64,000 nt of DNA from Blautia liquoris (GTDB lineage Bacteria > Bacillota > Clostridia > Lachnospirales > Lachnospiraceae), in contig NZ_CP063304.1 of assembly GCF_015159595.1 (NCBI RefSeq), forward strand, positions 2,542,001 to 2,606,000. Direction: 5' to 3'. The notes under the pieces are model-generated. The model was given only the letters and a program-made list of their open reading frames with translations, did not search any database and was not told where the DNA came from. The translations under genes and the position numbers were made by a program. Below, piece after piece: positions 34,722 to 53,952 of the stretch; position 1 is the stretch's first letter, and each line of letters starts with the position of its first letter.

Positions 34722-34781
34722 CTAACTCCCTCCTGTCTAAGCACACTATAGTCAGAATTTAACATGAATTTTACACTATTT

Positions 34782-34818
34782 ACCTGAATATAAGTGTATA
34801 AAACACTTTTATTCAGGT
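34782..34818. promoter_or_regulatory. 15-bp inverted repeat in the pilus mRNA leader
   Basis: ACCTGAATATAAGTG (34782-34796) and CACTTTTATTCAGGT (34804-34818) form a stem with one mismatch and a 7-nt loop. It lies downstream of the predicted -10 and 61 bp before the tip-protein start. It could be an RNA hairpin or an operator for another regulator. Confidence 0.55.
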
Positions 34819-34849
34819 TTTAATGTTAATAATTTCACTATTATCAATA

Positions 34850-34917
34850 ATAATACAGTAAAAAAATACGAAATAGTATTGAAGTGTCCTAAATTGGCAA
34901 CTTGATGTCTTAAATGA
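34850..34917 (-). promoter_or_regulatory. LytTR-type promoter of the pilus operon
   Basis: CCTAAATTG (34888-34896) and CTTAAATGA (34909-34917) are direct repeats spaced 9-12-9. Read on the minus strand they fit the LytTR half-site pattern at 8 of 9 and 7 of 9 positions. Below them lie 10 nt, a weak -35 (34872-34877), 16 nt and TATTAT (34850-34855), the same layout as before the LytTR gene. The rest of the 34,722-35,070 gap holds the leader hairpin and the terminator of the upstream operon. Confidence 0.7.
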
Positions 34918-34950
34918 TGATATTTGTCTAATTTTCATATATTTTGGCCA

Positions 34951-34985
34951 TGCAAAAAGGAACTGCGATTGCAGTTCCTTTTTGC
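34951..34985 (-). terminator. Terminator of the nucleoside operon
   Basis: A long inverted repeat (GCAAAAAGGAACTGC with GCAGTTCC and a T-run) with a 4-nt loop lies 86 bp past the last gene of the operon. The A/T-rich stem base supplies a T-tract on both strands. It also insulates the pilus promoter. Confidence 0.85.
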
Positions 34986-35070
34986 AGATCATTTATTCTT
35001 TTGTTCTATAATTATTTTAAAAACTATTTTTTCACCTTAATCACTGCTAATCTCAGTCCTTCTTATGCTT

Positions 35071-35679
35071 TTAAGTGATACGCTGCAAGATTTTATCTGC
35101 AATTCCAACCGTACCCTGTATTATATACCCATTCACGAACATAGACACAAAGGTAGCCCACCCAAGTCTTCCACCCAGCGCAAAGCCCGCTGCTGTCAAT
35201 ATGATATCCAATATAATTCTTACCTTTCTGATATTAAGCCGGAATTTTTCCGAAAAATAAACCATCAGAGCGTCGATCCCCGCCTCTCCCAGGCATGCCG
35301 AGATGTAAATACCAATTCCCACTCCCACAAACAGAATTCCTCCGCTAACTGCCAGCATTCTAAGCCAGAACAAAGCTTGGCCATCACCTTGAATATATGG
35401 TGCAAACCAATTGACAAAAGCACCTACCAGCACACTGTTTAAGATTGTGCCAATTCCAATTCTGCTCCGGTCCAGGAACAACAGCACCAACAGTATGCTA
35501 AGCATCAAAAGTTGAGAAGCCAGACCCAAAGAGATGTGGAACACATTGCTCAAACCGGACTGAAAAATCGACAGCGGATCCAGTCCGAACCCTGCTCTTA
35601 CCAGGAGATCTATGCCAAGTCCCATAATCGCACTCCCAAGGATTACGATCATTATTCTCATGAACAATTTCTTCTTCAT
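35071..35679 (-). CDS. YczE/YitT-type integral membrane protein
   Basis: This 202-residue protein has about five membrane segments and the conserved features of the YczE family (GLGIDLLVRAGFGLDPLS near the N-terminus; GIGIYISACLGEAGIDAL in the middle). Family members have no settled function. It is the last gene of the 13-gene nucleoside operon, 4 bp after the alcohol dehydrogenase, so a role in export or import of a pathway product is possible but only inferred. Confidence 0.85.
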   Translation of the reverse strand: MKKKLFMRIMIVILGSAIMGLGIDLLVRAGFGLDPLSIFQSGLSNVFHISLGLASQLLMLSILLVLLFLDRSRIGIGTILNSVLVGAFVNWFAPYIQGDGQALFWLRMLAVSGGILFVGVGIGIYISACLGEAGIDALMVYFSEKFRLNIRKVRIILDIILTAAGFALGGRLGWATFVSMFVNGYIIQGTVGIADKILQRIT

Positions 35680-35683
35680 GTGC

Positions 35684-36838
35684 TCACATCAGACTCCGGA
35701 ATGCATCCTCAATCTCCTCTTTCGAAGGTTGATAGAGATTGTGACGCAAGCTGGTATCCAACAGCGTCTTGTCTGCCAGAAGGGAGAAATCCTCTTCCTT
35801 TACACCAAGTTCTGCCAGACAACGTTTTGTCCCTACATCCTCTGACAGCTTTTCAATCCGTGCAATCAGATAGTCTGCCTGTTCCTGCATTTTCATACCA
35901 TTACATTCCACTGGAAATACCAGACCGCTTAATTTTGCGTAGCGCTCTATGGCACGCTTATCTTTCATATTCAGACGCGAAGCCGTAGGCATGAGTATTG
36001 CATTGCACAGCCCATGGGGCAGATCATACACAGCACTCAGCTGATGAGACATGGAATGAATCAACCCGCAGCCCGCATTTCCGAAAGACAGGCCTGCAAG
36101 AAACTGAGCCACGGACATCGCCTCCCTCGATTCCTGATCCGGACGATGCACAGCATCTTTTAGGTGTCCAAAAATCAGACGAACCGCACTCACAGCAAGT
36201 TCACAGGTAATCAGAGCGCCATCCGTGGAGACGTAGGACTCTACCGCATGTGTCAGAGCATCCATGCCGGTTCCTGCGGTAAGAGAAGGCGGCATATCCA
36301 TCATCAGCTCATAGTCCTCTACAGACAGAACCGGAATTACGTTTTGATCAAAGTTACCGTATTTCTCATTCTTTTTCTCGTCAACAACCACGTAATCCAT
36401 TGTACATTCACTTCCGGTTCCCGCTGTTGTCGTGACAGCGATGAGCGGATAGGTACAGCGGCTCTTATTGACACCCCGGTAATCCTCGATTTTACCGCCA
36501 TTTGCAGCAAGTACCGAGACTGCCTTAGCGCAGTCATGCGCAGAGCCGCCTCCCACAGAAATCAAAAAGTCACACTGATTCGCGGCGAATTGTTCCGCTC
36601 CCCGATTCACATTGTCCGTCGTCGGATTGGGCTTAAAATCGCTGTAGATGTAGTATCCTGTTCCTTCTGCATCCAGTGTATCCGTCACCTTGCTGACAAG
36701 TCCTGTGCTTCTCAACTTGTGATCCGCTACAAGAAATGCCTTTTTCAGGTTTCTCTTATGAATTTCTCTTTCGATTCCCCGAATACACCCAAATCCAAAC
36801 AATGTGCAGCTGGGTGAATCATATTCAAATATACTCAT
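35684..36838 (-). CDS. Iron-containing alcohol dehydrogenase (group III)
   Basis: This 384-residue NAD(P)-dependent enzyme interconverts aldehydes and alcohols. It has the nucleotide motif SVGGGSAHDCAKA (about residues 94-106), TAGTGSE, and metal ligands in MDALTHAVESY (Asp/His), GLIHSMSHQL and DLPHGLCNA, as in FucO and AdhE. In this operon the natural substrate would be the small aldehyde released by the class II aldolase: acetaldehyde, glycolaldehyde or methylthioacetaldehyde. Reduction would regenerate NAD+. It overlaps the EutH-like gene by 4 bp (ATGA). Confidence 0.93.
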   Translation of the reverse strand: MSIFEYDSPSCTLFGFGCIRGIEREIHKRNLKKAFLVADHKLRSTGLVSKVTDTLDAEGTGYYIYSDFKPNPTTDNVNRGAEQFAANQCDFLISVGGGSAHDCAKAVSVLAANGGKIEDYRGVNKSRCTYPLIAVTTTAGTGSECTMDYVVVDEKKNEKYGNFDQNVIPVLSVEDYELMMDMPPSLTAGTGMDALTHAVESYVSTDGALITCELAVSAVRLIFGHLKDAVHRPDQESREAMSVAQFLAGLSFGNAGCGLIHSMSHQLSAVYDLPHGLCNAILMPTASRLNMKDKRAIERYAKLSGLVFPVECNGMKMQEQADYLIARIEKLSEDVGTKRCLAELGVKEEDFSLLADKTLLDTSLRHNLYQPSKEEIEDAFRSLM

Positions 36839-37914
36839 GCTAATTTCTCCTTGGTCAATTTATTATTTTTTGTCGCAAAGTAAGCCAGTACAACTGCCAA
36901 TACTCCGCCCGTCAGTTTCGTTATCATCATAGGAACGACCATCTGTGAATCAACAGACCGGGTATATGCATAATGGGCCGTAAGGATGCAGATGGAATGC
37001 GTGTACCACGCGGCGGACAGCACAATTCCCCGCCGATCCATATCCTTGATCATCACAAAGACGGAAATCACATTCACACAGGAGATGGGGATCGCCGCCA
37101 CGGACACATCATTGATATGCAAAAGCTTTCCGACCGCAGAAAGCGGCCGTTTCAGTAAACGGATGAACAGATAAGCCAGCGGTATACTTCCCAGCTGAAT
37201 GACACACATGTCTGTCACAACTGCCAGAGCGTCTTCAATAGCGCCCAGCCCGGGTATAATGGAAATCTTCGTGATATATGTAAATGCAGCAATTCCCAGA
37301 CTTAAAATCGTGATGGCTTTCAAAAACCATGCAAAAGCCATAAACCCTCTGATCACCCGTTCCTTTAACACCAAAAATCCAACGATCACAAGGGCGGAAA
37401 TAAAGAGTACCGGAACCGTATTCAAAAGCAGGAGCGGAAGACGTATTCCCATAGCCAACCCTCCCGCCACAGAGCCCACCGGAATGGTCACAATGCCAAT
37501 CAAAACCCCTGTGACAAAGTCGTCTTGCTTCTCTGGGGTAATCAGTCCAAGAGCCACCGGAATGGTATAGACTAAAGTAGCGCCCAGTGTAGAGGAGACA
37601 ATCAGCCCGGAATAAAGCCCGATCTCCTGCTTTTCAACCATCGCCATAGCAAGGGGATATCCCCCCATGTTGTTGGCAAGGATACATCCGAACATGGCAG
37701 GATCAATTCCAAACACTCGAAAGACCGGGGCCACCACGGCGTTGCTGACCTGGCCGAGAACGGGAGCCAGGCAGATGATTCCCACCATGCTAAGCGCCGT
37801 AGAGCCCATACATAGGAATCCTTCCTCGAATTTATCGCCCAGCTTTAATCGATTTCCGCTTATATAATCCACAGCACCGATCAATGCCCCGATCGCTATG
37901 AGAATATTCAGCAT
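36835..37914 (-). CDS. eutH: EutH-like transport protein
   Basis: This 359-residue membrane protein with about ten segments matches the EutH ethanolamine-facilitator family along its length. Shared features are FEEGFLCMGSTALSMVGIICLAPVL (residues about 30-54), LANNMGGYPLA, YSGLIVSSTLGATLVYTIPVALGLI, GIVTIPVGSVAGGLAMG, and VGKLLHINDVSVAAIPISC. No other eut gene or microcompartment shell gene is present. It sits between the deaminase and the alcohol dehydrogenase in a nucleoside operon, overlapping both, so its cargo here may be a small alcohol, aldehyde or amine from the pathway. The family call is firm; the substrate is not. Confidence 0.85.
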   Translation of the reverse strand: MLNILIAIGALIGAVDYISGNRLKLGDKFEEGFLCMGSTALSMVGIICLAPVLGQVSNAVVAPVFRVFGIDPAMFGCILANNMGGYPLAMAMVEKQEIGLYSGLIVSSTLGATLVYTIPVALGLITPEKQDDFVTGVLIGIVTIPVGSVAGGLAMGIRLPLLLLNTVPVLFISALVIVGFLVLKERVIRGFMAFAWFLKAITILSLGIAAFTYITKISIIPGLGAIEDALAVVTDMCVIQLGSIPLAYLFIRLLKRPLSAVGKLLHINDVSVAAIPISCVNVISVFVMIKDMDRRGIVLSAAWYTHSICILTAHYAYTRSVDSQMVVPMMITKLTGGVLAVVLAYFATKNNKLTKEKLA

Positions 37915-39227
37915 TCCCGCACCTTCGCTTTTTTCCGATGACAGATACGATTTACACGCTTTGTAACCTCATACAACACACGTTCCCGGTCTATCGTGAG
38001 AAACTCCCCATTCTTATAGACAGTCTCTCCGTCTATCACGGTCATATACAGATCCGAACTCTGGGCGGAATACACCAGATTGGCCAAGAGATTGTGTGTC
38101 GGCAGCAAATGCGGTTTGTCCATATCCAATATGATAAAGTCTGCCCGCTTCCCCATCTCAATTACACCGCAGTCCTTTCTCCCTTGCGCATGGGCACCAT
38201 TTACCGTTGCCATTTTCAAAATCATCGCCGGGGGCAGCATCGTACTGTCATGAAATGCACCTTTCCCTGCAAGAGAAGCCAGATGCATCTCCTCCATCAT
38301 ATTCAAGTTGTTATTGCTTGCCGCCCCATCTGTGGCAATGATCACATTGATTCCATCATCTACATAAGTGCTGATCGGTGCAATTCCGCTTCCAAGCTTC
38401 ATATTTGAGGATATGCAGTGCGAAATAGAGGCACCGGATTTTGCCATAATCTTTCGATCCTCGTTTTCAAGATATACACAATGTGCTGCCAGTACCGGAT
38501 TTTCAAAGATACCGCAGCTCTTTAAGTATTGAACGGGTGACATTTCGTTATGGCGCTCCTTGCACTCTCTGTGCTCTTTTTGTGTTTCTGATATATGGGT
38601 GTGGACAATCAGCCCCTGATCCTTTGCAAGCTCTGCCACGGCTCTCACCAACGTATCACTTGATGTGTACTCCGCATGCAATCCAGCGTCCACTTGTATG
38701 CGATCGTCTTTTCGTTGTCTTGTTTGTTTTAAAAGTGTCAGGGTATCTTTCCAGCCCTTTAAGTTCTCCGGTTTCGTCTGCTCATCCGACGAGGACAGCC
38801 CATGGCAGATATTTGCCTTGATTTTTGCCCCATCTAACGCGCGGGCAATATCCAGAATATGAAAGTACATATCCGAGATAGACACACAACCGCTGGAGAT
38901 TAGTTCCATAGCACCCAACAGTGCTCCGTAATAACAATCCTCTCCTTTCAGATTCTCCTCGAACGGAAACATCTTTTTTGTCAGCCAGTCACTCAAGCTT
39001 AAGCCTTCCCCCAGGCCGCGTGCCATCGTCATAGGCACATGGCAGTGGGTGTTATAAAATCCTGGCATCATCACTTTCCCTTTGCCGCTGATAAACGCTC
39101 CCGCGTATCTCGTCACCTCTTTGGTCCCTACATAACTGAAACGGCCGTTTTCCACCAACACATTCGTGTGCTCCACTGGCTGAAATTCTTTATCTAAAAT
39201 CGTGATATCCTTTATTAACATAGGCAC
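37908..39227 (-). CDS. Amidohydrolase, MTA/adenosine/5'-deoxyadenosine deaminase-like
   Basis: This 439-residue metal-dependent deaminase belongs to the SsnA/MtaD branch of the amidohydrolases. Metal and catalytic motifs are visible: HCH in FYNTHCHVPMTMARGLGEGLS (about residue 62), His in IVHTHISETQKEH (about 207), His in AAHCVYLENED, and Asp in IATDGAASNNN (about 310). Known relatives deaminate methylthioadenosine, S-adenosylhomocysteine or 5'-deoxyadenosine to the inosine forms. Next to inosine-type phosphorylases and an MtnA-like isomerase, a DadD-like role in 5'-deoxynucleoside salvage is likely; guanine or adenosine deamination is the alternative. Confidence 0.85.
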   Translation of the reverse strand: MPMLIKDITILDKEFQPVEHTNVLVENGRFSYVGTKEVTRYAGAFISGKGKVMMPGFYNTHCHVPMTMARGLGEGLSLSDWLTKKMFPFEENLKGEDCYYGALLGAMELISSGCVSISDMYFHILDIARALDGAKIKANICHGLSSSDEQTKPENLKGWKDTLTLLKQTRQRKDDRIQVDAGLHAEYTSSDTLVRAVAELAKDQGLIVHTHISETQKEHRECKERHNEMSPVQYLKSCGIFENPVLAAHCVYLENEDRKIMAKSGASISHCISSNMKLGSGIAPISTYVDDGINVIIATDGAASNNNLNMMEEMHLASLAGKGAFHDSTMLPPAMILKMATVNGAHAQGRKDCGVIEMGKRADFIILDMDKPHLLPTHNLLANLVYSAQSSDLYMTVIDGETVYKNGEFLTIDRERVLYEVTKRVNRICHRKKAKVREC

Positions 39228-39232
39228 CTCTT

Positions 39233-39988
39233 TTATTCATCAATCTCAACACTGATCACAGCGTCCAGTGCAATCTCAATCTCCTGATTCACCGCCTGAG
39301 CTACCATATTCTCGTCTGGCTGATATCCTTCTACGCCCACCAATTCAAATGCAGGCGCATCCGCCGCGAGAATCGCTCCCGCTTTCACTTTGTGCAGGCT
39401 TGCCACAACAAGTAAACCTGCCACCTCATTCTCCATGGCAATCACACCTGCTTTCATATACAGGCGAACCATCGATTCCAGAAGTCCCGGATAAAACAGT
39501 GCCTGCGTGAGGACAATCCCGCTATGTGTTTCTATCTGCAGATGATTTGCACTATTCTCAAGCGCTCTTTGCACATCGGCATCGGCAATCGCGGGATAAG
39601 ACATCGGAATCATTTTCTCCGTCACACCGTCCTCTCGGCAAGCCGCTTTGGCAATCACAATACTGCCCGCCGTAATCTCCTTTTGCATTCCGCCACAGGT
39701 TCCAACACGGATGATAACCTTGGCTCCGGCTCTGCACAGACTTTCGAACCCGATTACAGCACCGCCCTCACCCACGCCATGCGAGGTGACTGTGACAGGT
39801 ATGCCCTTCCAACTGCCCACATACGTATGATATTCTCTGTTTTTAGCCAGACATTTCATGTCATCCAATTTACGCGCAATCTTCTCTGCACGTGCAGGAT
39901 CCCCACAGGTAATGACTCTGGGATAAATATCGCCTTCGCAGAGTGCAATACATGGCAGAACATCTCTTTTTTTCTTTTCCATATTCAA
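39233..39988 (-). CDS. Nucleoside phosphorylase (hexameric PNP/UP family)
   Basis: This 251-residue enzyme splits nucleosides with phosphate to a base and ribose-1-phosphate. Family motifs are CGDPARAEKIA (phosphate loop), IIRVGTCGGMQ (about residue 92) and VIAMENEVAGL (ribose binding, about 180). It lies 8 bp downstream of the permease NupQ and 5 bp before the deaminase. It is one of three different phosphorylases in the operon, which implies a broad or divided nucleoside range. The base specificity cannot be read reliably. Confidence 0.9.
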   Translation of the reverse strand: MNMEKKKRDVLPCIALCEGDIYPRVITCGDPARAEKIARKLDDMKCLAKNREYHTYVGSWKGIPVTVTSHGVGEGGAVIGFESLCRAGAKVIIRVGTCGGMQKEITAGSIVIAKAACREDGVTEKMIPMSYPAIADADVQRALENSANHLQIETHSGIVLTQALFYPGLLESMVRLYMKAGVIAMENEVAGLLVVASLHKVKAGAILAADAPAFELVGVEGYQPDENMVAQAVNQEIEIALDAVISVEIDE

Positions 39989-39996
39989 TACCTCTT

Positions 39997-40890
39997 CTAT
40001 TTCTTTTTTAATTTTTTATTTCCAAAAGCAGATAATGCTATGATCGTTGCAATGTAGGGGATCGTCAGTGTCAGCTGCGACGGAATTACATTCTGCAGTG
40101 ACACACCAATCGCCTGACAGAATCCAAAAAACAGGCTCGAAACAATGATGAGAATCGGCTGATTCTGTCCCATACTTGCCGCTGCCATCGCAATGTAACC
40201 TCTTCCGGAACTCATATTCTCTGAAAACAGAGTCACTTGTCCCATACTGAGCACCGCTCCGCCAAGACCGCAGAGTGCACCAGATACCAACACCGCAATC
40301 ATCTGAATCTTCAGGCCTTTGATTCCCATACTGCCTGCCGCCTCTTTATTCTTCCCAACACTTTGAACATGAAAGCCCTGTACTGTCCGGTATAGATAGA
40401 CAAACATCGCCGCCGCCAATATGTAGGATAAATAGTCAATGAAAGTCAGATGCTCCAAAACACGTCCGACAAAGAAGATATCCTTTACTACAGGAATCGC
40501 AATCTTAGGCAGAGGTTTCAGGGCAGGGTTTGAAAAGCTTCCCTTTACTCCCAGAATGGTATACAAAAGCACACTGGTCAGTCCGCTGACCAAAAGATTC
40601 ACAGAAGTGCCAATCACCATGTCTGCAGCTCGATACTTAACCTGCAAAATTGATACCAGAGAAGATATAGCTGCTCCCGCCAATACACTGCACAACACTG
40701 CAACATACACATTTCCCGTGTAATAATTGACGACGATACCGACAAAAGAACCGATCAGTATCTGACCTTCCAGCGCAATGTTGAATACACCTACCTGGCT
40801 GCAGATCGCGGAACCAAGCGCCGCCAAAAGCACCGGGGTCGTAGACCGTATGGTTGAATTGATGATAACTGCTAATAGATTCGTATTCAT
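39997..40890 (-). CDS. nupQ: Nucleoside ABC transporter permease (NupQ-like)
   Basis: This 297-residue permease has about eight to nine membrane segments and the BPD_transp_2 hallmark (SAICSQVGVFNIALEGQILIGSF, about residues 27-49) found in nucleoside importers such as Bacillus NupQ (YufQ). It ends FGNKKLKKK. It overlaps its partner permease by 4 bp. With the BMP lipoprotein, ATPase and second permease it forms a complete importer for nucleosides, possibly including 5'-modified ones. Confidence 0.92.
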   Translation of the reverse strand: MNTNLLAVIINSTIRSTTPVLLAALGSAICSQVGVFNIALEGQILIGSFVGIVVNYYTGNVYVAVLCSVLAGAAISSLVSILQVKYRAADMVIGTSVNLLVSGLTSVLLYTILGVKGSFSNPALKPLPKIAIPVVKDIFFVGRVLEHLTFIDYLSYILAAAMFVYLYRTVQGFHVQSVGKNKEAAGSMGIKGLKIQMIAVLVSGALCGLGGAVLSMGQVTLFSENMSSGRGYIAMAAASMGQNQPILIIVSSLFFGFCQAIGVSLQNVIPSQLTLTIPYIATIIALSAFGNKKLKKK

Positions 40891-41978
40891 GACGTCTCAA
40901 CCCCTCCATTCTCCTGTCTTTTCTTAAGTTTTCGTCTCTTTAAAAAATCCATTCCCAATTTAGCTGACACAAACAATGTGATACTACTCTGGATTACCGT
41001 AGACATCTGAAGCGGAATGCTTGAGGATCGCTGAATCGCCTGTCCTCCGACCTGCAGGCCGGAAAGAAAGATAGATACTGCAAGAATGCCAATCAGATGC
41101 AAATTCGCAATCAGTGCCGCCATCAATCCCGTCCATGCATAGCTGGTACTCGTAAACATATTGTCTGTATAGCGGTATTTCGTGCCAAAGATCTCACAGA
41201 TTCCGGCGACTGCCGCGATCGCACCACTAAGAGCCATGGTCTTTAACATAACCTTTCGTTCGAATACCCCGCCATAGCGGGCAAATCCGGGATTCAATCC
41301 CGTCATCTTCGACTCATAGCCAAAGACAGTTTTCCTCTCCATAAAGTAAAACAGGATTGTCACAATTACTGCGAGGATAATTCCAAAGTTCAGTGTATTG
41401 GAAGAGCTGAACTGAAGAAACCTTGTACTCTTTGGGATCGTCTTCGTCATAAGCGACAGTCCATCTCCCGAGTGGTCCTTGAAGGGATAGCTGACCAGAT
41501 AAGAGGCGATATAATTTGCCACGTAGTTGAGCATCAGCGTACAGATTACGATGGAGCTGTTAAATTTCATATTCAATACAGCCACAAGCGATGCATACAG
41601 GCCGCCTGCAATCATACCAATAACGATTGATAAAGGCAGCAGCAAAAATCCCGGAAGGGGCACATAGATCGCCACAATGGTCGCGGCAAATGCTCCCGTT
41701 ATCATCTGCCCTTCCACGCCGATATTGATATATCCGGCGCGCCATGCCGCCGCGGTGGCAATACCGCAGATGATAATCGGTGTTGCTCTCGTCAGTGTCT
41801 GTGTCAGATAATAGGGATCAAAAAATGATTTTTCGAACATATTCCTGTATATGACGATCGGATTTTCTTTGGACAACAGGATAAACACTGCCCCTACCAG
41901 CAGCCCCAGCAAAGTTGCCACAACGGGTTGAATCATGATTTTTGCAAACTGTTTTATATAGGACTTAAACTTGTTCAT
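40887..41978 (-). CDS. nupP: Nucleoside ABC transporter permease (NupP-like)
   Basis: This 363-residue permease is the longer of the pair. It has the family stretch AAAWRAGYINIGVEGQMITGAFAA (about residues 77-100) and about ten membrane segments. Its start overlaps the ATPase gene by 14 bp. The order BMP lipoprotein, ATPase, NupP, NupQ is the same as in Bacillus nupNOPQ, which imports nucleosides. Confidence 0.92.
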   Translation of the reverse strand: MNKFKSYIKQFAKIMIQPVVATLLGLLVGAVFILLSKENPIVIYRNMFEKSFFDPYYLTQTLTRATPIIICGIATAAAWRAGYINIGVEGQMITGAFAATIVAIYVPLPGFLLLPLSIVIGMIAGGLYASLVAVLNMKFNSSIVICTLMLNYVANYIASYLVSYPFKDHSGDGLSLMTKTIPKSTRFLQFSSSNTLNFGIILAVIVTILFYFMERKTVFGYESKMTGLNPGFARYGGVFERKVMLKTMALSGAIAAVAGICEIFGTKYRYTDNMFTSTSYAWTGLMAALIANLHLIGILAVSIFLSGLQVGGQAIQRSSSIPLQMSTVIQSSITLFVSAKLGMDFLKRRKLKKRQENGGVETS

Positions 41979-43470
41979 CGTGACCTCCCATCATCAGATA
42001 GCCTGCCTTCTCAGCGTCAACCTGATCTCTGTCGAATTCGCCTCGAATTTGTCCGTCGTAAATCACATAGACCCGGTCAGACAACGACAATACCTCTGAT
42101 AATTCTGAGGATACAAGGAGAATACCATCTCCACTGTTTCTCTTTTTGACAAGCTGGTCGTGAATAAACTCCTGTGCGCCAATATCAACACCCCTCGTGG
42201 GTTCCGCCGCGATCAAAAACTTCGACTGATGTTCAACTTCTCTGGCTACAATCAGTTTCTGGATATTACCTCCTGAAAGAGCACCTGCCCGGTCTCTTAT
42301 ATCGCTGTATTTCACGCTGTATTTCTTTAGCAATTCCATTGTGAATTCTCGACTATGTCGTTTATTCATAATTCCATGCGCCGAGAACACCGGTTGATGT
42401 TCATATCCCATAAGTGCCGTCTCCTCCAGATCTGCATTTACCGCACAGCCAAAATCATAACGGTCTTCCGGAATGTGTGCACAACCCGTATCTCTTATTT
42501 CCCGAACCCCTTTTTGCGAAATGTCCTGCCCATTCAGTTCTATCTTTCCCTTCGACGCGTGCAAAAGACCGGTAAGACATTGAATCAGTTCCGTCTGCCC
42601 ATTTCCGGACACACCGGCCAGACCGACAATCTCTCCCTCCTGAATATGCAGGCTTAAGCCTTTGATTATTGGAACACCTTCACTCTCATAATATAGATCC
42701 TGTACCTCAAGGACTTTATCCCCTGGTGTCTTCTTCGGAATCTTTCGAGCCGCTATCCCCTTTCCGACCATCAGGCAGGAAAGTTCCTTGATATCCGTTT
42801 CGCAGATTTTTCGTTCACCGACGTATTGCCCTTTACGCATAACCACCGCCCGGTCTGCCACATCCATCACCTCCTGAAGTTTGTGGGTGATAATGATGAT
42901 GGTTTTCCCCAGACTGGCAAGATGCTTTAAAGTCTTTAGAAGTTCGTCAATTTCCTGAGGAACCAGCACGGCGGTAGGCTCATCAAAGATAATAATGTCT
43001 GCGTCTTGATACAACACTTTCAAGATCTCGATTCGTTGGCGCATACCCACGGAACATTCCTCCACCTGCAAATCAGGATCAATATGTAATCCATACTCAG
43101 AACTTAAGTTTTGTACAATCCCCCTCGCTTTTTTTCTGTCAAAAAAGCCGCTTTTGGCGGGTTCTTTCCCATAGACAATATTTTCCGTCACAGTATAGTC
43201 ATTAAAAAGCATAAAGTGCTGCTGCACCATGCCGATGCCATGTGCTATAGCATCTTGTACCGATTGGATATTGATCTTTTCACCGTTCATGAAAATCTCC
43301 CCTGCATCCGCCTGGTTTAAGCCGTACAGAATCTTCATGATTGTCGTTTTTCCAGCACCGTTCTCACCGATTACTGCCAATATCTCTCCTTTGTTCAATC
43401 CAAAGCTAACATTGTCGTTTGCAATGGTCGGACCGAATGTTTTTGTAATATTCTTTAATTCCAGGAACAT
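41965..43470 (-). CDS. nupO: Nucleoside ABC transporter ATPase, double domain (NupO-like)
   Basis: This 501-residue protein has two ABC domains. The first has Walker A GENGAGKTT (about residue 36), signature-like CSVGMRQRIEI and Walker B IIIFDEPTAVL. The second has GVSGNGQTEL, the signature ALSGGNIQKLIVAREV and AAEPTRGVD. Degenerate second-domain Walker A is normal in this family. The start at 43470 (MFLELKNITK) is set by AGGAGG; an upstream in-frame ATG at 43512 lacks a site. It energises the nucleoside importer. Confidence 0.94.
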   Translation of the reverse strand: MFLELKNITKTFGPTIANDNVSFGLNKGEILAVIGENGAGKTTIMKILYGLNQADAGEIFMNGEKINIQSVQDAIAHGIGMVQQHFMLFNDYTVTENIVYGKEPAKSGFFDRKKARGIVQNLSSEYGLHIDPDLQVEECSVGMRQRIEILKVLYQDADIIIFDEPTAVLVPQEIDELLKTLKHLASLGKTIIIITHKLQEVMDVADRAVVMRKGQYVGERKICETDIKELSCLMVGKGIAARKIPKKTPGDKVLEVQDLYYESEGVPIIKGLSLHIQEGEIVGLAGVSGNGQTELIQCLTGLLHASKGKIELNGQDISQKGVREIRDTGCAHIPEDRYDFGCAVNADLEETALMGYEHQPVFSAHGIMNKRHSREFTMELLKKYSVKYSDIRDRAGALSGGNIQKLIVAREVEHQSKFLIAAEPTRGVDIGAQEFIHDQLVKKRNSGDGILLVSSELSEVLSLSDRVYVIYDGQIRGEFDRDQVDAEKAGYLMMGGHDEQV

Positions 43471-43550
43471 GTATGATTCCTCCTGCTGTAAAAGGAAGCG
43501 ATGATCTGCCATAGAGATCGACGATACACCACTTCCCTTTGTCCTATTGA

Positions 43551-44594
43551 TTATTGAACATAGCCTTCTTCATCTGGCACTACAGACAGATCAATTTCTT
43601 TATTCTTGATTTTATCTGCAGTGTCCTTCAGCGTCTCTATATCCTCGTCTGAAAGTTTATCACTTCTTGGATTTTCGCTGTCATGAGTTACAAATACCGC
43701 TCCAATCGCACCTTCCTCAATTCCCAGGGACTCATTGTCTGTACTCCACTCTCCGCCGAAATACTGATCCATCAGATACTGCATCGTTGCGTAGGTATCC
43801 TTGATCTGACTTGTCACGATCCACGGATTGTCCGGGGATGTCAAATCGACATCTTGACCCGATGTGTAGAATTCCTTTTCCTTGGCCGCCTCGAACACTC
43901 CTTTATCACCTCCCGCTGCTGCAGAGTTGATAAACTGACATCCTTGCTCGTACTGCTGGATCGCATATTCTTTTGCTTTTGCGGGATCATTATAACCTCC
44001 CACATAGTTAAAGATAAACTTTACATTCTCCTTCTCGGACTTTACACCTTCCATATATCCCCATCTCCACTTAAAACTACTGGGTCCTTGGGATACATGC
44101 ACCGCGCCGAAGACATTTGTGTCGTCATCCGTCACCATTCCGGCAATCTTTCCAATCAGGTATGCGCCCTCCTGCTCCCGATACGAAATACACTTTACAT
44201 TGTCAACATCCACTTCCGAATCAATCATCGCATAATCCGCTTTATCCGGATATTCCGTGGCAACCTTACTGATCGCGTCCGTAGCCTGCCAGCTTCCGCC
44301 AATCAGAAGATCTACACCTTCCTCCACCAGTGCCCGACAATTATCCTCATACGCAGCCGCGTCCTCACACTCTGCGATGATCGGCTCAAACCCATATTTT
44401 TCTGCGCTGGCTTTTAACCCGTCAATCATGTTCAGTACAAATACCTGTGTTCCGGCCACATCGCTGACAAGAGCAACCTTCTTTTTCTTTCCCTCATCTT
44501 TTTTATCGTCTTGTTTTTTCGAATCCCCACACCCTGTCATGATCGCCATTGTCATGCAGAGTCCAACTGCTACCAGTTTTCTGAATTTTTTCAT
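43551..44594 (-). CDS. nupN: BMP-family nucleoside-binding lipoprotein (NupN-like)
   Basis: This 347-residue lipoprotein has a signal peptide with lipobox IMTGC (cysteine at about 22), a Lys/Asp-rich linker and a BMP/PBP1-type domain (KVALVSDVAGTQVFVLN; GGYNDPAKAKEYAIQQYEQG; SAAAGGDKGVF). Family members bind nucleosides outside the membrane. It is the first transporter gene, after the PNP gene. Specificity for 5'-deoxynucleosides would be a testable point of interest. Confidence 0.92.
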   Translation of the reverse strand: MKKFRKLVAVGLCMTMAIMTGCGDSKKQDDKKDEGKKKKVALVSDVAGTQVFVLNMIDGLKASAEKYGFEPIIAECEDAAAYEDNCRALVEEGVDLLIGGSWQATDAISKVATEYPDKADYAMIDSEVDVDNVKCISYREQEGAYLIGKIAGMVTDDDTNVFGAVHVSQGPSSFKWRWGYMEGVKSEKENVKFIFNYVGGYNDPAKAKEYAIQQYEQGCQFINSAAAGGDKGVFEAAKEKEFYTSGQDVDLTSPDNPWIVTSQIKDTYATMQYLMDQYFGGEWSTDNESLGIEEGAIGAVFVTHDSENPRSDKLSDEDIETLKDTADKIKNKEIDLSVVPDEEGYVQ

Positions 44595-44656
44595 TGTTTT
44601 CCTCCTCCATAAAATGATAAATAGGCATTTTTCAGCGTGATATCGCTTTCATCTTC

Positions 44657-45484
44657 TTATATATTTCTCACAATATGCTTCAGATATTCTTTAAACTCCT
44701 GTGCGGATTGGGCCGCAATCTGATCCACTTCCCTGCCATCCACCGGGTTATCATCGATTCCAGCCGCCATGTTGCTGATCAGGGAGATGGCAAGTGTCCT
44801 CATTCCACAGTGAGCAGCCGTAAGAGCCTCTGTAACGGTTGACATTCCGGCCGCATCTGCTCCTGCTGCTCTTAGAAAGCGAATCTCTGCAGGCGTTTCA
44901 AAATGGGGGCCCACCTGATAGGCATACACGCCTTCCTGTATTCGAAGATGACATTGTGGTGCCAAACTTTTCGCAAGTTTTCGCAAATCTTTATCATAGG
45001 CGTTACTCACATCGAAGAAACGTGGACCAATCCGGTCATCGTTCACCCCTCGAAGCGGAGACGCACCCGCTAAATTGATGTGGTCCTTGATGATCATCAG
45101 GTCCCCTGGCCGATAGCCCGTGTTGATGCCCCCCGCTGCATTGGTAAGGATGACTGTCTTTACACCCAGCAGTTTGAACAGACGGATGGGTGCCGTCAGC
45201 TGTTCATAGTCATAACCCTCATAATAATGGAATCGTCCCGACATGCAAACAATCTTCTTCCCGCACAATTCTCCCAAAATCAACTTACCGGCATGTGATT
45301 TCACTGTGCTGACCAGGAAACCTGGAATCTCTTCATATGGAATTTCCACCGGGTGTTTGATATCTTCGGAAAGTCTTCCAAGCGCCGAGCCCAGGATCAG
45401 CGCAATCTGCGGCTCGAAATCAATCTTACTTTTCACATAATCAGCGCTTTTCTCAAAATATTCAAGATTAAAATTGTATTTCAT
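44657..45484 (-). CDS. punA: Purine nucleoside phosphorylase (trimeric type)
   Basis: This 275-residue enzyme converts purine nucleosides plus phosphate to base and ribose-1-phosphate. Motifs include ALILGSALG (phosphate loop), GRFHYYEGYD, LTNAAGG, GPHFETPAEIRFLR, and ISNMAAG with the purine-contacting Asn. The usual Pro in MSTVPE is Thr here (MSTVTE), a small deviation. The ATG at 45484 is preferred over the GTG at 45496, which touches the AAAGGAG site. It overlaps the uridine phosphorylase gene by 17 bp. It is a good candidate for inosine, 5'-deoxyinosine or methylthioinosine made by the deaminase. Confidence 0.92.
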   Translation of the reverse strand: MKYNFNLEYFEKSADYVKSKIDFEPQIALILGSALGRLSEDIKHPVEIPYEEIPGFLVSTVKSHAGKLILGELCGKKIVCMSGRFHYYEGYDYEQLTAPIRLFKLLGVKTVILTNAAGGINTGYRPGDLMIIKDHINLAGASPLRGVNDDRIGPRFFDVSNAYDKDLRKLAKSLAPQCHLRIQEGVYAYQVGPHFETPAEIRFLRAAGADAAGMSTVTEALTAAHCGMRTLAISLISNMAAGIDDNPVDGREVDQIAAQSAQEFKEYLKHIVRNI

Positions 45485-46259
45485 TCGTACTTTCACTCCT
45501 TTTCCTCTTTTTTATCAGGATTCTTATCCCTTCTGTCACTGTTTGAATGGCAAGATCCAGATCCCTTGTCGTCTTGGAGGAAAGTCCTGCCCTCTCCCTC
45601 TCTTTGTTCCATATAACATGCAGGACAGCTCCGGCCCGAAGTCTCCTGACTTGAGATACAATAAACACTGCGGCACACTCCATCTCAGATGCGAGAGCTC
45701 CGGCGCGAATCCACGCATCGTAATGTTCCTTCAAGTCTCTTTCTGCCGGCATCCGATCGGGCATGTGCTGGCCATAATAGGAGTCCTTACTCTGAACAAT
45801 GCCCTTATGCACTTTCACGCCGACTTTCTCTGCCGCCTCATCGAGCGCACGCACCACATCAAAATTTGCTGCCGCCGGGAATTCGCCATACACATACTCC
45901 TTTGTGGTACCTTCCTGGCGAATAGCAGCTGTCGGAAGAATAAGTTCTCCACTTCGAACTTCCGGCTGCATTCCCCCACAGGTTCCCAGACGAATCACCG
46001 TATCCACCCCAATCATTGCCAACTCTTCTACTGCTATGGTAGCCGACGGACCGCCCATGCCCGTGGAGATGACCAAAATCTTTTCTCCGTCCAAATACCC
46101 CTCATAGCTTGTATACTCCCTATGTACAGACAGGGGTTTTGGATTTTCGAGATATCCGGCAATTACTGCGACACGCTCAGGGTCTCCCGGCAAAATTGCA
46201 TATTTGGCACCAATCCCAGAGTCCAGATCGATACTGCTGCCATATACCTTCTCGTTCAT
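45468..46259 (-). CDS. udp: Uridine phosphorylase
   Basis: This 263-residue protein has the uridine phosphorylase features LPGDPERVAVIAGYL, TGMGGPSATIAVEELAMIG (about residues 75-93), RLGTCGGMQPEVRSG, KDSYYGQH and ASEMECAAVF. It would release uracil and ribose-1-phosphate, or act on related pyrimidine nucleosides. It lies 15 bp after the isomerase gene and overlaps the PNP gene. Together with the two other phosphorylases it removes any need for a sugar kinase. Confidence 0.92.
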   Translation of the reverse strand: MNEKVYGSSIDLDSGIGAKYAILPGDPERVAVIAGYLENPKPLSVHREYTSYEGYLDGEKILVISTGMGGPSATIAVEELAMIGVDTVIRLGTCGGMQPEVRSGELILPTAAIRQEGTTKEYVYGEFPAAANFDVVRALDEAAEKVGVKVHKGIVQSKDSYYGQHMPDRMPAERDLKEHYDAWIRAGALASEMECAAVFIVSQVRRLRAGAVLHVIWNKERERAGLSSKTTRDLDLAIQTVTEGIRILIKKRKRSESTNEIQF

Positions 46260-46274
46260 AATTACCTCCCAAAG

Positions 46275-47327
46275 TTATTTTCCCTCTGTTTGAAAATAGG
46301 CACCCAGCTGATACGGTGAAAATACACCCAAATCCGTCACCACACCATTGCACAACTTGGGCGGTGTGATATCAAATGCCGGATAATAAGCCTTTACCCC
46401 CTCCTTTGTAACCTTTGTTCCCATAGCATCCATGACCAGGTTGGGATCACGGTACTCAATCTTCACACTATCAATAGTCTCATGCGCCGGACTTGGTGTG
46501 CCTGTCACAAAATAAGGAATATTATGATATGCAGCCGCCAGGGCAATCTGAAAAGTTCCAACCTTATTCACCACATATCCATCCATGCTTATCACATCCG
46601 CGGCAGAGGTAAACACATCGACCTGTTTATCCTTCATAATAAAACCTGGCATATTATCCGTGATGACAGCAACATCGACACCCATATCACAGGCAACACT
46701 TGCCGTCAGCCGGGCACCTTGAAAATATGGCCTCGTCTCTGCACAGATCATCTTTATATCATTGCTTTGTCTGTGGCATTCCCGAATCAGCGTGCCGATA
46801 ATCGTCTCCGCAAAACATTGGGTCATAATCGTGCCTTCCTGTGGAATCAGATCTGCAAGATATTTTCCGACCTTCTCATACTTGCGGTAATTATTATTGA
46901 TGTAATGAAATGCGTACTCGCGCAAAGGCTCCACGATTTCACGCGCACATTCATCTTTCTTTACGTGATCTTTTACCACTTCCACTGCACCATCTACAAT
47001 CTGCACCATCTTTGATACCGTTGTGGGGCGGGCATGGGAAAGCGTGTATGCTGCCTTTTCCATATAGATCACCAACTCATCGCCTGCCATCTCTTTGGCC
47101 TCATGTGCAGCCAGTGCCATGCCCATAGCTGCAGCTGTATAGGGTCCTCCACTTTGCGTTACCATATCGGCAATCGCCTGCGCAACCTCCCCATGAGTTT
47201 TGCAAATTACATACTCCGTTTTAATCGGATATATCCTTCGATCAAGAATTCGAACGACACCATCCTCGTACCATGCCACATTCTCATACTGCAGAAGAAA
47301 ACCCATTCCTTCATCCGCTCGCTGCAT
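46275..47327 (-). CDS. MtnA-like aldose-1-phosphate isomerase (eIF2B-alpha family)
   Basis: This protein of about 350 residues belongs to the MtnA/ribose-1,5-bisphosphate isomerase family, which opens aldose-1-phosphates to ketose-1-phosphates. The two catalytic residues known for MtnA are present: Cys in IMTQCFAETIIGT (about residue 164) and Asp in VAVITDNMPGF (about 228). ARLTA and KVGTFQIALAAAYHNIPYFV complete the signature. The ATG at 47327 has better spacing from GGAG than the one at 47333. It overlaps the aldolase stop region. Likely substrates are methylthioribose-1-P, 5-deoxyribose-1-P or ribose-1-P from the phosphorylases. Confidence 0.88.
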   Translation of the reverse strand: MQRADEGMGFLLQYENVAWYEDGVVRILDRRIYPIKTEYVICKTHGEVAQAIADMVTQSGGPYTAAAMGMALAAHEAKEMAGDELVIYMEKAAYTLSHARPTTVSKMVQIVDGAVEVVKDHVKKDECAREIVEPLREYAFHYINNNYRKYEKVGKYLADLIPQEGTIMTQCFAETIIGTLIRECHRQSNDIKMICAETRPYFQGARLTASVACDMGVDVAVITDNMPGFIMKDKQVDVFTSAADVISMDGYVVNKVGTFQIALAAAYHNIPYFVTGTPSPAHETIDSVKIEYRDPNLVMDAMGTKVTKEGVKAYYPAFDITPPKLCNGVVTDLGVFSPYQLGAYFQTEGK

Positions 47328-47329
47328 TA

Positions 47330-47944
47330 TCATCTCTCCTTCATATATTTCACATATTTGTCATCAATCAACCTAACATCGCCATTGCTCAAAGCGAGAC
47401 TATATATCTTTGCCGAATCCTCGACGTACACTGCTCTTGTATATGCCTGCTCCAGATTCTCACCCACAGCAAGCACCCCATGATTAGCCATCAGGCATGC
47501 ATTCCGCTCCTTTAGCTTTTTCACTGCCTCGACGCCGACCTTTACTGTACCCGGAACTGCAAAATCTGCCACTTCAATATCGCCGCCCAAGAAAGGGACC
47601 ATCTCGATTAATATCACCGGGATCTTCCAATGATTCACGGCAAATGACGTGGCATACGGGGAATGGGTATGAATAACAGCCGATACCTCCGGCTTACAAC
47701 GATAGACCTCTGCATGCATACGCCACTCAGATGAGGGTCTTTTCAAACCTTCCAAAATCTCACCATCAAGGGTCATCCGCACCAAATCTTCTTCCGTCAT
47801 TGTGTCATAAGGTATGGAACCGGGTGTTATGTACATGTCGCCCGTAGCATGGTCAAAATAACTTAAGTTTCCACTGGTTCCGGCAAATAACGCTTCATGA
47901 TAGGATCTCTTCGTTACTTCCAGAAGTTCTTCTCTTATTTTCAA
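47330..47944 (-). CDS. Class II aldolase (fuculose-1-phosphate aldolase / Ald2-like)
   Basis: This zinc aldolase of about 205 residues cleaves ketose-1-phosphates into DHAP and an aldehyde. Key features are SGNLSYFD, the acid Glu in SSEWRMHAEVY, zinc His pair in AVIHTHSPYATSFA and His in MANHGVLAVG. A GGAGG site overlaps the in-frame ATG at 47962, so the TTG at 47944 ten bases later (KIREELLEVTKRSY) is the likely start. It is the first gene of the 13-gene operon. Beside an MtnA-like isomerase it is the expected aldolase of a DHAP shunt. MtnB-type dehydratases share this fold, so that is the main alternative. Confidence 0.88.
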   Translation of the reverse strand: MKIREELLEVTKRSYHEALFAGTSGNLSYFDHATGDMYITPGSIPYDTMTEEDLVRMTLDGEILEGLKRPSSEWRMHAEVYRCKPEVSAVIHTHSPYATSFAVNHWKIPVILIEMVPFLGGDIEVADFAVPGTVKVGVEAVKKLKERNACLMANHGVLAVGENLEQAYTRAVYVEDSAKIYSLALSNGDVRLIDDKYVKYMKER

Positions 47945-47998
47945 AAATAAATATACCTCCATCTTTTTGTTTTGTGTTGTTTTGTATTTAATGTCAAC

Positions 47999-48027
47999 AT
48001 AATACCACACTCCTTATAATTCCGCAA
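47999..48027 (-). promoter_or_regulatory. Candidate promoter of the nucleoside operon
   Basis: On the minus strand TTGCGG (48022-48027), a 17-bp spacer and TATTAT (47999-48004) lie 54 bp before the TTG start of the aldolase gene. The adjacent AT-rich stretch to 48180 shows no clear operator. Confidence 0.5.
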
Positions 48028-48180
48028 CCATTTTTCGTTATTATTTTTATTTTTTTTGTAATTTTCCTTGGTATCTTATGGACTTTTTTCAACATTACTT
48101 TTATTTTTCCCAAATTATGTGAGGTGATTTTATAACATTCATCCATATATCCTGATAATCAGAATCTTTTTGTACAATAT

Positions 48181-48235
48181 AACAGGCGTTGTTTCATGTC
48201 CCGTCAGATGTACGGTCCATAAAACAACGCCTGTT
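48181..48235. terminator. 14-bp perfect hairpin after the DeoR gene
   Basis: AACAGGCGTTGTTT (48181-48194) pairs exactly with 48222-48235, with a smaller stem (CCGT/ACGG) inside the loop. It lies 18 bp past the DeoR stop codon. T-residues after the stem are few, so it is either a terminator or a structured site between the regulator and its target operon. Confidence 0.5.
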
Positions 48236-48253
48236 AAATCTCACAATATTCCA

Positions 48254-49018
48254 TTATTTTTCACTCTCAATAATATGTATCTCGTATTCTTTTAGGTGCG
48301 TCCTCCAGTCTTCCGATACCTTTTCATCGGTAATCAAGATATCAACACTTTCGATCGGGCTAGTTCGCACGAATGCAGATCGGTCAAACTTTGTGTGATC
48401 TGCTATCAGGCATGCATTATCCGTGCATTCCAATATACTCCGATGAAGCTCAGCAATCATATCCTCTGAATCATGAATCCCATAGACCATATCCAAACTG
48501 GTACACGAAATAAATGACTTGTCGAAACAGTGTTGTTTTAAATACTTAATTGTCTCAATTCCAAAGAATGCCTGACTCTTTTGATCAAAGTCACCGCTCG
48601 GAACACAAAGCTGTATATTTCTGTATTGGGATACTGCCTCCATCACAGGTAAAGAATTAGTCATCACAGTCAACGGAATATCGGATAAAAATTCACATAA
48701 TGCAAATACCGTTGTGCTGTGATCCAAAAAAATGCAGTCATTAGGGTGTATAAGCTGCACCGCCTGCTTTGCCATCCGTTGTTTTTCCTCACGCATAACG
48801 AAGGACTTGATTTTCTGGGGAACCGTTATATTCTTTCGAAACGAAAGCGAAGCTCCTCCATATGTTTTAATCAGAAATCCTTCGTTGCTCAGTAATTCGA
48901 AATCGCGTCGGATCGTCTCCGTACTGACAGAGAACAGCTCCGCCATCTCTGCTACCGTCACATTTTTCTTTGTCAATAAAATTTCTTTTATTTTTTCTCT
49001 GCGTTCAATCGATAACAT
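48254..49018 (-). CDS. DeoR-family transcriptional regulator
   Basis: This 254-residue repressor has the DeoR helix-turn-helix at its N-terminus (MLSIERREKIKEILLTKKNVTVAEMAELFSVSTETIRRDF) and a sugar-phosphate sensing DeoRC domain (FLDHSTTVFALCEFL; IADHTKFDRSAF). The ATG at 49018 follows GAGGAAAG; upstream in-frame starts lack sites. It sits just upstream of the nucleoside operon and downstream of the aldolase sugar operon, so it could control either. DeoR proteins typically respond to sugar phosphates, and ribose-1-P or 5-deoxyribose-1-P would fit. Confidence 0.93.
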   Translation of the reverse strand: MLSIERREKIKEILLTKKNVTVAEMAELFSVSTETIRRDFELLSNEGFLIKTYGGASLSFRKNITVPQKIKSFVMREEKQRMAKQAVQLIHPNDCIFLDHSTTVFALCEFLSDIPLTVMTNSLPVMEAVSQYRNIQLCVPSGDFDQKSQAFFGIETIKYLKQHCFDKSFISCTSLDMVYGIHDSEDMIAELHRSILECTDNACLIADHTKFDRSAFVRTSPIESVDILITDEKVSEDWRTHLKEYEIHIIESEK

Positions 49019-49262
49019 CTTCTTTCCTCGTTTCATATATATTAAGTGATCGTAAATTAAGCTTTTGCTGTGAACTGCAATAGAGCTACTTTTATTCATA
49101 ATAACATAAAATCCATCTTAATCACAAGATATAGTATAAAACAAATCAATGAAGTGGAAAGAAAGAAACAGGCTTCATCAGTGGCTCGTTCGGCGATTCC
49201 TTATTTGACCCGCTAAATGTTTCCGAAACTGATATCCTCTAATTCAACTGGCCACACATAAT

Positions 49263-50117
49263 TTAAAGAGAGAACTTATTGGGATTTAATAGTCTTATTT
49301 TATCTACAACAAACCTTATCATGTCATCTTTATTACTCTGCAGCAAGCTCACGCCGTCATCTTTCATCTTTCCAGCAGTAATGGTTGATTCCATGCTTCG
49401 ATACAGTGCTCTAAAGTATTCTGTTGCAATATTAAACTTGCTCATACCAAGATTTACTGCCTCTTGTATCTGTTCTCTGGGTATATCGGAACAACCATGT
49501 AATACTAATGGAATATTCAGAGCTGATCGAAGTTCTGAAATTCTCCTAAAATCAAGATTCGGTGTTTTTACATAAGTCCCATGTGCATTACCAACGGCAA
49601 CTGCGAGAGAATCACATCCGGTCTTTTCTACGAATTGAACTGCCTGATCAACATTGGTATAGTGCTGCGAATTAGTGATGTCATCTACACTACTTCCACT
49701 CCCTACATGACCTAATTCTGCTTCGACATCAATTCCAAAAACCTTGGCAACTCTGACCACATCTTTTGTCAATGTAATATTTTCATCATATTTTAGGGAA
49801 GACCCGTCGATCATGACAGATGGAAACCCGTCGCGAATTCCGCTTAACGCGATTTCATAAGTGTTGGAGTGATCTAGGTGTACTCCAATTGGAACACTCA
49901 CCTTTTTTGCCATATCACACGCTGTATATGCAATATACTTTAGTGCCACATAATCACAAAGTCCAGGGTAAAACTGAATAATCAGGGGTACCTTTTCCTG
50001 CTCCGCTGCAAGAATCGCATATTTAATTGTTTCAACATTGATTGTATTGATGGCTGCAACACCATATTTGTGTTCCGTTGCATGTATTAAAATGTCTTTT
50101 ACCTTAACTAAAGCCAT
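49263..50117 (-). CDS. Class II fructose-bisphosphate/tagatose-type aldolase
   Basis: This 284-residue zinc aldolase is of the Fba/GatY/KbaY type. Zinc and catalytic features are VPIGVHLDHSNTYE (about residues 76-89), VEAELGHVGSG, VAVGNAHGTY and PLVLHGCSDIP. It would split a ketose phosphate into DHAP and an aldehyde. It is the last gene of an operon with a sugar kinase, an isomerase-like protein and a reductase, so its substrate is probably the phosphorylated sugar made by those enzymes. Confidence 0.92.
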   Translation of the reverse strand: MALVKVKDILIHATEHKYGVAAINTINVETIKYAILAAEQEKVPLIIQFYPGLCDYVALKYIAYTACDMAKKVSVPIGVHLDHSNTYEIALSGIRDGFPSVMIDGSSLKYDENITLTKDVVRVAKVFGIDVEAELGHVGSGSSVDDITNSQHYTNVDQAVQFVEKTGCDSLAVAVGNAHGTYVKTPNLDFRRISELRSALNIPLVLHGCSDIPREQIQEAVNLGMSKFNIATEYFRALYRSMESTITAGKMKDDGVSLLQSNKDDMIRFVVDKIRLLNPNKFSL

Positions 50118-50129
50118 GATCTGTTCCTC

Positions 50130-51077: not shown

Positions 51078-51094
51078 CTTATAATCCTCCTCTT

Positions 51095-51592: not shown

Positions 51593-51606
51593 AGATGTTT
51601 CCCTCC

Positions 51607-53950: not shown

Positions 53951-53952
53951 AT

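Follow-up and report, generated by a model that had tools for sequence, protein, structure and literature searches.

Organization of the locus

The 64,000-nucleotide stretch of the Blautia liquoris genome analyzed here (the window; contig NZ_CP063304.1, positions 2,542,001 to 2,606,000) contains 13 co-directional minus-strand genes (35071–47962) for a predicted ABC (ATP-binding cassette) importer, three nucleoside phosphorylases, a deaminase, an MtnA-superfamily isomerase, an aldolase and an alcohol dehydrogenase (Table 1). An original prediction read these as a single operon converting nucleosides to dihydroxyacetone phosphate (DHAP), and the gene order and tight packing that it described agree with the coordinates and with the families assigned by Pfam and NCBIfam. 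Intergenic spacings range from −29 to +15 bp, save for gaps of 62 bp and 38 bp flanking the BMP lipoprotein gene, and the single clear terminator proposed for the end of the operon is present.

The bounds of the operon needed adjustment at the upstream end. The most likely start of the aldolase gene is a TTG at 47944, 11 bp after a GGAGG, rather than the ATG at 47962, because the ATG sits at the edge of this ribosome-binding site and a related locus, L034, has a matching TTG start (labels of this type denote the loci compared here, in which neighboring genes were called by tblastn). A DeoR-family regulator gene upstream (48254–49099) had been omitted; it is part of the locus, is syntenic in L033, L034 and L035 (72–75% identity), and its product probably controls the operon. 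The −10 region of the promoter-like site (TGTGGTATT.TGTTGA) is kept in the same three loci. A hairpin between the DeoR gene and the aldolase gene was considered as a regulatory RNA and rejected; it is read as the terminator of the DeoR gene, its L034 counterpart having a T run. An Rfam scan of 33000–53000 returned no RNA element, and hence no riboswitch for the operon.

The search for the same set of neighbors that the original prediction had proposed recovered the order in L033, L034 and L035, so the arrangement is not chance. L033 has the DeoR regulator, aldolase, isomerase, purine nucleoside phosphorylase (PNP), BMP lipoprotein, ATPase, two permeases, third phosphorylase, deaminase, EutH and alcohol dehydrogenase; L034 has aldolase, isomerase, uridine phosphorylase (UP), PNP, BMP lipoprotein, ATPase, two permeases and third phosphorylase, and the start of this order is also seen in L035. 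The L033 and L034 proteins are ~68–87% identical to those of the operon.

Table 1. Features of the nucleoside operon and its flanks (window positions)
Feature	Coordinates	Strand	Basis
Class II (fuculose-1-phosphate/DrdA-type) aldolase	47330..47944	-	PF00596
MtnA-superfamily isomerase, separate clade (TQSGGP loop, QCF[AG]E motif)	46275..47333	-	PF01008
Uridine phosphorylase-like protein	45468..46259	-	TIGR01718, 259.7 bits, under 280.3 cut-off
Trimeric-type PNP	44657..45496	-	TIGR01700 and NF006054, above cut-off
BMP/PnrA-type substrate-binding lipoprotein	43551..44594	-	PF02608
ABC transporter ATPase, two ATPase domains	41965..43512	-	NCBIfam ABC_ATP_B6, 382.7 bits, under cut-off; kin of sugar importer ATPases
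ABC permease 1	40887..41978	-	NF047929, under cut-off
ABC permease 2	39997..40890	-	NF047928, under cut-off
Third phosphorylase (UP/DeoD family)	39233..39988	-	PF01048; nearest solved structures 3fow/1nw4 (Plasmodium PNP)
5'-Methylthioadenosine (MTA)/5'-deoxyadenosine-type deaminase	37908..39227	-	Amidohydro_1, MTA/S-adenosylhomocysteine (SAH)/5'-deoxyadenosine deaminase type; nearest solved TM0936
EutH paralogue, predicted small-molecule permease	36835..37914	-	PF04346
Iron-containing alcohol dehydrogenase, proposed aldehyde reductase	35684..36838	-	TIGR02638 (lactaldehyde reductase, best model), 361.6 bits, under 523 cut-off
YczE/YitT-like membrane protein	35071..35679	-	NF052291, 111 bits, under 205 cut-off
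Intrinsic terminator of operon	34951..34986	-	16-pair hairpin and T run
DeoR/GlpR-family regulator, own transcription unit upstream	48254..49099	-	NCBIfam AgaR/SrlR/DeoR-type matches, none above cut-off
Promoter-like site TTGCGG-17 bp-TATTAT, extended -10 (TGG)	47999..48027	-	Sequence reading

The phosphorylases lack the 5'-hydroxyl histidine

In human PNP, His257 hydrogen-bonds the 5'-hydroxyl of the nucleoside (PMC12648331), and in the Plasmodium enzyme this group is bound by His7' (PMC10911062). A test of the corresponding residues shows glycine at the human His257 position of the operon PNP, which thus lacks this mark of an ordinary-nucleoside PNP but retains all ten of the remaining active-site residues examined; the classical deo-locus enzymes of the same genome retain the 5'-hydroxyl histidine, and the deo PNP has it at this position. 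In the operon UP, the equivalent of Escherichia coli His8, which we take to be the 5'-hydroxyl-binding histidine of that enzyme, is serine or glycine depending on the alignment, and in the third phosphorylase the 5'-hydroxyl histidine is replaced by Cys13, a change from histidine to cysteine seen in all three phosphorylases of this kind. The pattern extends to relatives encoded in similar loci (referred to here as shunt-linked). The His257 equivalent is gone from 36 of 37 shunt-linked PNPs, with varied and often small replacements, and in nearly every one of these proteins the other 10 of the 11 active-site residues are retained; it is present in 28 of 31 control PNPs, including all six encoded beside deoB. 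Likewise, the His8 equivalent is kept in 30 of the 30 control UPs that have this region and is absent from all five shunt-linked UPs. Judged from these alignments, three different phosphorylases of one operon have lost the same function with the rest of their active sites nearly all retained, and they appear to be adapted to substrates without a 5'-hydroxyl.

Phosphorylases and kinases alternate in related loci

We compared 81 loci, 80 from isomerase relatives drawn from 84,980 species genomes and one further locus; many of their contigs end early, so absences are soft. Thirty-three have a PNP without a kinase, three a deaminase without a PNP, 29 a kinase without a PNP, two have both and 14 neither, where kinase means a gene of the 5-methylthioribose (MTR) kinase family (MTRK). 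Five of the kinases, in separate loci, exceed the equivalog cut-off for MTRK. The aldolase, isomerase, UP and PNP genes of the window are adjacent, as expected of a DHAP shunt, and among the related loci 35 are PNP-bearing and 29 kinase-only. Of the three closest, L033 has phosphorylases and no kinase within the stretch examined, and in L034 and L035 an MTR kinase is added to the phosphorylases, that of L035 being above the cut-off; the L035 cluster also has two nucleoside hydrolases, confirmed by Pfam. The labels nucleoside and kinase switch about five times on the isomerase tree, with the window clade lying among kinase-type loci, and the aldolase tree likewise mixes the two types. Most simply, phosphorylase and kinase would be alternative routes to the same 1-phosphate. 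DrdK, a member of the MTRK family, is active on 5-deoxyribose and 5-methylthioribose and inactive on ribose (PMC6079011). In three other Lachnospiraceae loci (L022, L024 and L029) a deaminase and PNP are clustered with a classical MtnA, with no aldolase visible within the 4-kb stretch.

Isomerase and aldolase

The window isomerase belongs to a clade that we aligned from 82 loci in several phyla and contrasted with 28 classical MtnA proteins of the same bacterial family and the Bacillus subtilis enzyme. The phosphate loop RGA (B. subtilis 51–53) is replaced by QSG and the catalytic-cysteine motif CNAG by CF[AG]E, both fixed or nearly so across the 82 loci, whereas the usual motifs are present in the 28 classical proteins and in B. 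subtilis. The catalytic residues and the other phosphate ligands are retained: Cys173 and Asp246 correspond to the MtnA catalytic cysteine and aspartate, and Arg102, Gln205 and Asn256-Lys257 to its Arg94, Gln199 and Asn250-Lys251. The protein scores 198 bits with TIGR00512 (MtnA; cut-off 279) and 141.5 bits with TIGR00511 (ribose-1,5-bisphosphate isomerase; cut-off 314), below both. An AlphaFold model (mean pLDDT 89) matches MTR-1-phosphate (MTR-1-P) isomerases over full length with Z ~35 and ribose-1,5-bisphosphate isomerases with Z ~28. The earlier description of the protein as MtnA-like thus holds for the fold and catalytic residues, but with the RGA loop lost this is not an ordinary MtnA. 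The shunt isomerase of E. coli S88, whose ATCC 25922 counterpart has been characterized, is of the classical RGA type and 28% identical to that of the window. On sequence grounds the clade is distinct from the characterized shunt isomerase, and this is both the main novelty of the system and its largest uncertainty. The protein is the single MtnA-superfamily member in the genome, and the clade is patchy, being found in 15 of 391 genomes of the same class.

The aldolase contains the SSE glutamate and the metal ligands His97, His99 and His160 (numbered from codon 47959), and the three histidines are invariant in 54 sequences. By PDB similarity it is about equally close to Bacillus thuringiensis DrdA and Streptococcus pneumoniae FucA, and this measure does not discriminate between their specificities. 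In the tree it lies outside the DrdA/FucA clade, in a sister clade common to kinase-type and nucleoside-type loci. We propose that it releases DHAP from a ketose-1-phosphate.

Deaminase, importer and EutH

The deaminase has every metal ligand and catalytic residue of TM0936. The TM0936 Arg136/Arg148 pair, which we take to bind the homocysteine carboxylate of SAH, is replaced by histidine and glycine, and SAH is therefore disfavored as a substrate; both arginines are kept in 13 of 29 shunt-linked deaminases. The genome encodes seven BMP lipoproteins and two EutH proteins, the other, higher-scoring EutH being at C1:517914. In L044 (2542–5900), genes for an MTR kinase, the isomerase and a EutH paralogue are consecutive, a second lineage that ties EutH to the isomerase clade; EutH is missing from most of the related loci.

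Genomic context of nucleoside use

The closed 3.52-Mb genome has eight phosphorylase-superfamily genes. A classical nucleoside locus at ~1.81 Mb contains phosphopentomutase (deoB) and PNP together with adenosine deaminase and uridine phosphorylase, the last two named by sequence reading, as was an MTA/SAH nucleosidase at 98.7 kb. Had deoB been missing, ordinary ribonucleosides would have been favored as the substrates of the operon; the gene is present, and therefore these compounds already have a complete route. 5-Deoxyribose-1-phosphate is unusable by phosphopentomutase, as it has no 5-hydroxyl to phosphorylate. No MTR kinase was found in the genome. Elsewhere in the genome there is a second deaminase–PNP pair (L116; C1 near 3289459–3290199), in which tyrosine takes the place of the PNP His257; this pair has no adjacent isomerase gene.

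A proposed pathway and its alternatives

We propose that the operon serves to take up and break down 5'-deoxy (5'-modified) nucleosides by a DHAP shunt with phosphorylase entry, with 5'-deoxyadenosine and/or MTA as the most likely substrates, and assign this a probability of about 0.68. The BMP-type ABC importer would take up the nucleoside, and the deaminase would convert 5'-deoxyadenosine (or MTA) to 5'-deoxyinosine (or 5'-methylthioinosine, MTI). The three phosphorylases would then free the base and 5-deoxyribose-1-phosphate (or MTR-1-P), which the isomerase would convert to 5-deoxyribulose-1-phosphate in the former case. Cleavage by the class II aldolase would yield DHAP and acetaldehyde (or methylthioacetaldehyde), and the iron-containing alcohol dehydrogenase would reduce the aldehyde to ethanol or methylthioethanol. 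The gene families of the operon support the shunt-type route, phosphorolytic entry, deaminase, aldehyde reduction and dedicated importer of the original prediction.

That prediction had left the choice of substrate between 5'-deoxynucleosides and ordinary ribonucleosides. With the latter, ribose-1-phosphate would pass through ribulose-1-phosphate to DHAP and glycolaldehyde, which the dehydrogenase would reduce to ethylene glycol. The PNP and UP are members of the inosine/guanosine and uridine families, BMP-type importers often serve nucleosides, the alcohol dehydrogenase is lactaldehyde-reductase-like, and the third-best NCBIfam match of the aldolase is the ribulose-1-phosphate aldolase of haloarchaea (134 bits against a cut-off of 300). 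Haloarchaea do turn guanosine into DHAP and ethylene glycol (PMC9700705), and the operon would be a kinase- and phosphatase-free version of their route. Nevertheless, 5'-deoxynucleosides are favored and ribonucleosides seem unlikely, because the 5'-hydroxyl histidine is gone from three separate phosphorylases, the phosphorylases interchange with an MTR/5-deoxyribose kinase whose characterized relative does not use ribose, and the deo pathway is intact in the same genome.

Several points weigh against the 5'-deoxynucleoside reading. The shunt-linked PNPs form one clade, so the 36 losses are perhaps one ancestral event, and for this reason a single-site Fisher test on the PNPs is not taken as proof; moreover, the shunt and control PNP sets diverge at 17 of 106 conserved columns. 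The histidine is retained in the PNP of one shunt locus (L106) and, in other Lachnospiraceae, in some PNPs encoded next to a classical MtnA (L024, L136). Both the phosphate loop and the active-site motif are rebuilt in the isomerase clade, unlike in the characterized E. coli shunt isomerase, a UP of the pyrimidine type is a poor match for 5'-deoxyadenosine or MTA, and the MTA/SAH nucleosidase is a competing fate for both compounds when they arise internally.

In another alternative, the substrate would be a nucleoside with a different 5'-substituent (amino, halo or a larger group), to which the isomerase changes would be adapted; for an amino substituent, EutH would handle a product such as ethanolamine. 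The fixation or near fixation of the isomerase motif changes in 82 loci, the room left by often small residues at PNP position 257, the presence in two lineages of a EutH paralogue adjacent or close to the isomerase, and the retention of a UP are consistent with this; to our knowledge, natural 5'-deoxyuridine is not a recognized waste product. Most related loci lack EutH, however, and the MTR kinase partners suit 5-deoxyribose or MTR, and this alternative seems rather unlikely. A more specific form, in which the isomerase clade and altered phosphorylases would serve an unrecognized nutrient whose C5 substituent is neither H nor SCH3, such as a 5'-amino nucleoside giving aminoacetaldehyde and, via the alcohol dehydrogenase, ethanolamine, would account for the fixed glutamate 176 and for the EutH paralogue, but we consider it quite improbable. 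Finally, the operon might serve mainly for base salvage or detoxification rather than nutrient uptake, with the isomerase and aldolase needed just to clear the sugar phosphate. B. thuringiensis becomes more susceptible to added 5-deoxyribose when the drd isomerase or aldolase is lost (PMC6079011), but E. coli carrying the shunt can use such compounds for growth (PMC10986504), and a dedicated importer and an alcohol dehydrogenase in the same apparent transcript indicate uptake and catabolism, making this account highly improbable.

5'-Deoxyadenosine and MTA are unavoidable waste products of S-adenosylmethionine (SAM) chemistry, and anaerobes are especially rich in radical-SAM enzymes. If a widespread operon of this kind, with its own importer, does consume them, they would be nutrients exchanged in gut and anaerobic communities. 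This raises the questions of whether an anaerobe can grow on exogenous 5'-deoxynucleosides through phosphorolysis, and whether different phosphorylases are retuned to 5'-deoxy substrates when a single histidine is lost. More speculatively, a UP tolerating 5'-deoxy sugars could free 5-fluorouracil from the drug intermediate 5'-deoxy-5-fluorouridine.

Comparison with known systems

The pathway type is known, and it is the entry module and isomerase clade that are unusual. Kinase-free entry, which the original prediction emphasized, agrees with the lack of an MTR kinase but is not new, having been demonstrated in Rhodospirillum rubrum and Rhodopseudomonas palustris and predicted in Clostridium phytofermentans. 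The MtnP-MtnA-Ald2 system of R. rubrum and R. palustris (PMC5893883) shares phosphorylase entry without a kinase, an MtnA-superfamily isomerase, a class II aldolase and an alcohol dehydrogenase, but its MTA phosphorylase acts on MTA itself with no deaminase step, and that report describes no single operon combining three phosphorylases with an ABC importer, as in the window. In the C. phytofermentans cluster a phosphorylase replaces the kinase in a route predicted for 5'-deoxyadenosine; it is, however, an MTA-phosphorylase-like trio known only by prediction, and the accessible part of its account (PMC6079011) mentions neither a deaminase nor an ABC importer for nucleosides. B. thuringiensis drdKIA and E. 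coli ATCC 25922/S88 mtnK-mtnA-ald2 also lead through an isomerase and aldolase to DHAP and an aldehyde, and the E. coli operon includes a transporter gene, but entry there is by nucleosidase and kinase.

Deamination followed by phosphorolysis of the inosine-type nucleoside has precedents in the Pseudomonas aeruginosa MTA deaminase and MTI phosphorylase and in Methanocaldococcus jannaschii DadD, MtiP and MJ0454 (PMC6302742), although the downstream fates differ and the aldolase step is not shown there. We found no account of deaminase and PNP entry joined to an aldolase exit in the open-access literature, subscription papers being mostly outside the search. The haloarchaeal non-carboxylating pentose bisphosphate pathway (PMC9700705) likewise leads from a nucleoside to DHAP and a two-carbon alcohol, but guanosine is processed via ribose-1,5-bisphosphate and a ribose-1-phosphate kinase and a ribulose-1,5-bisphosphate phosphatase are required. 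Neither a kinase nor a phosphatase of these types is found among the 13 operon genes by Pfam and NCBIfam. The fluorometabolite route of Streptomyces differs in being biosynthetic and actinobacterial, and it is not known to include an import operon. It too consists of phosphorolysis, an isomerase (for 5-fluoro-5-deoxyribose-1-phosphate) and an aldolase, giving DHAP and fluoroacetaldehyde from a 5'-modified nucleoside (mentioned in PMC6302742 and PMC6079011).

Other features of the window

Directly upstream of the regulator gene there is a second sugar locus on the minus strand (49263–62588), with a fructose/tagatose-bisphosphate-type aldolase, aldo-keto reductase, PfkB kinase, major facilitator superfamily transporter, two-component system, ABC sugar importer and ThuA-like protein. 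On the other side of the operon, a minus-strand gene (30939–34721) encodes a surface protein of 1260 residues that combines RCC1-type propeller repeats with Cna-B and SpaA domains and has an LPXTG-like C-terminus (LPAAG), adjoining genes for a pilin-like protein (29019–30935) and a sortase (27179–28021); this region is a candidate for a propeller-bearing pilus or surface fibre. The window also contains two Clostridiales-1 RNAs (RF01699), at 5962–6167 on the minus strand and 18188–18393 on the plus strand.

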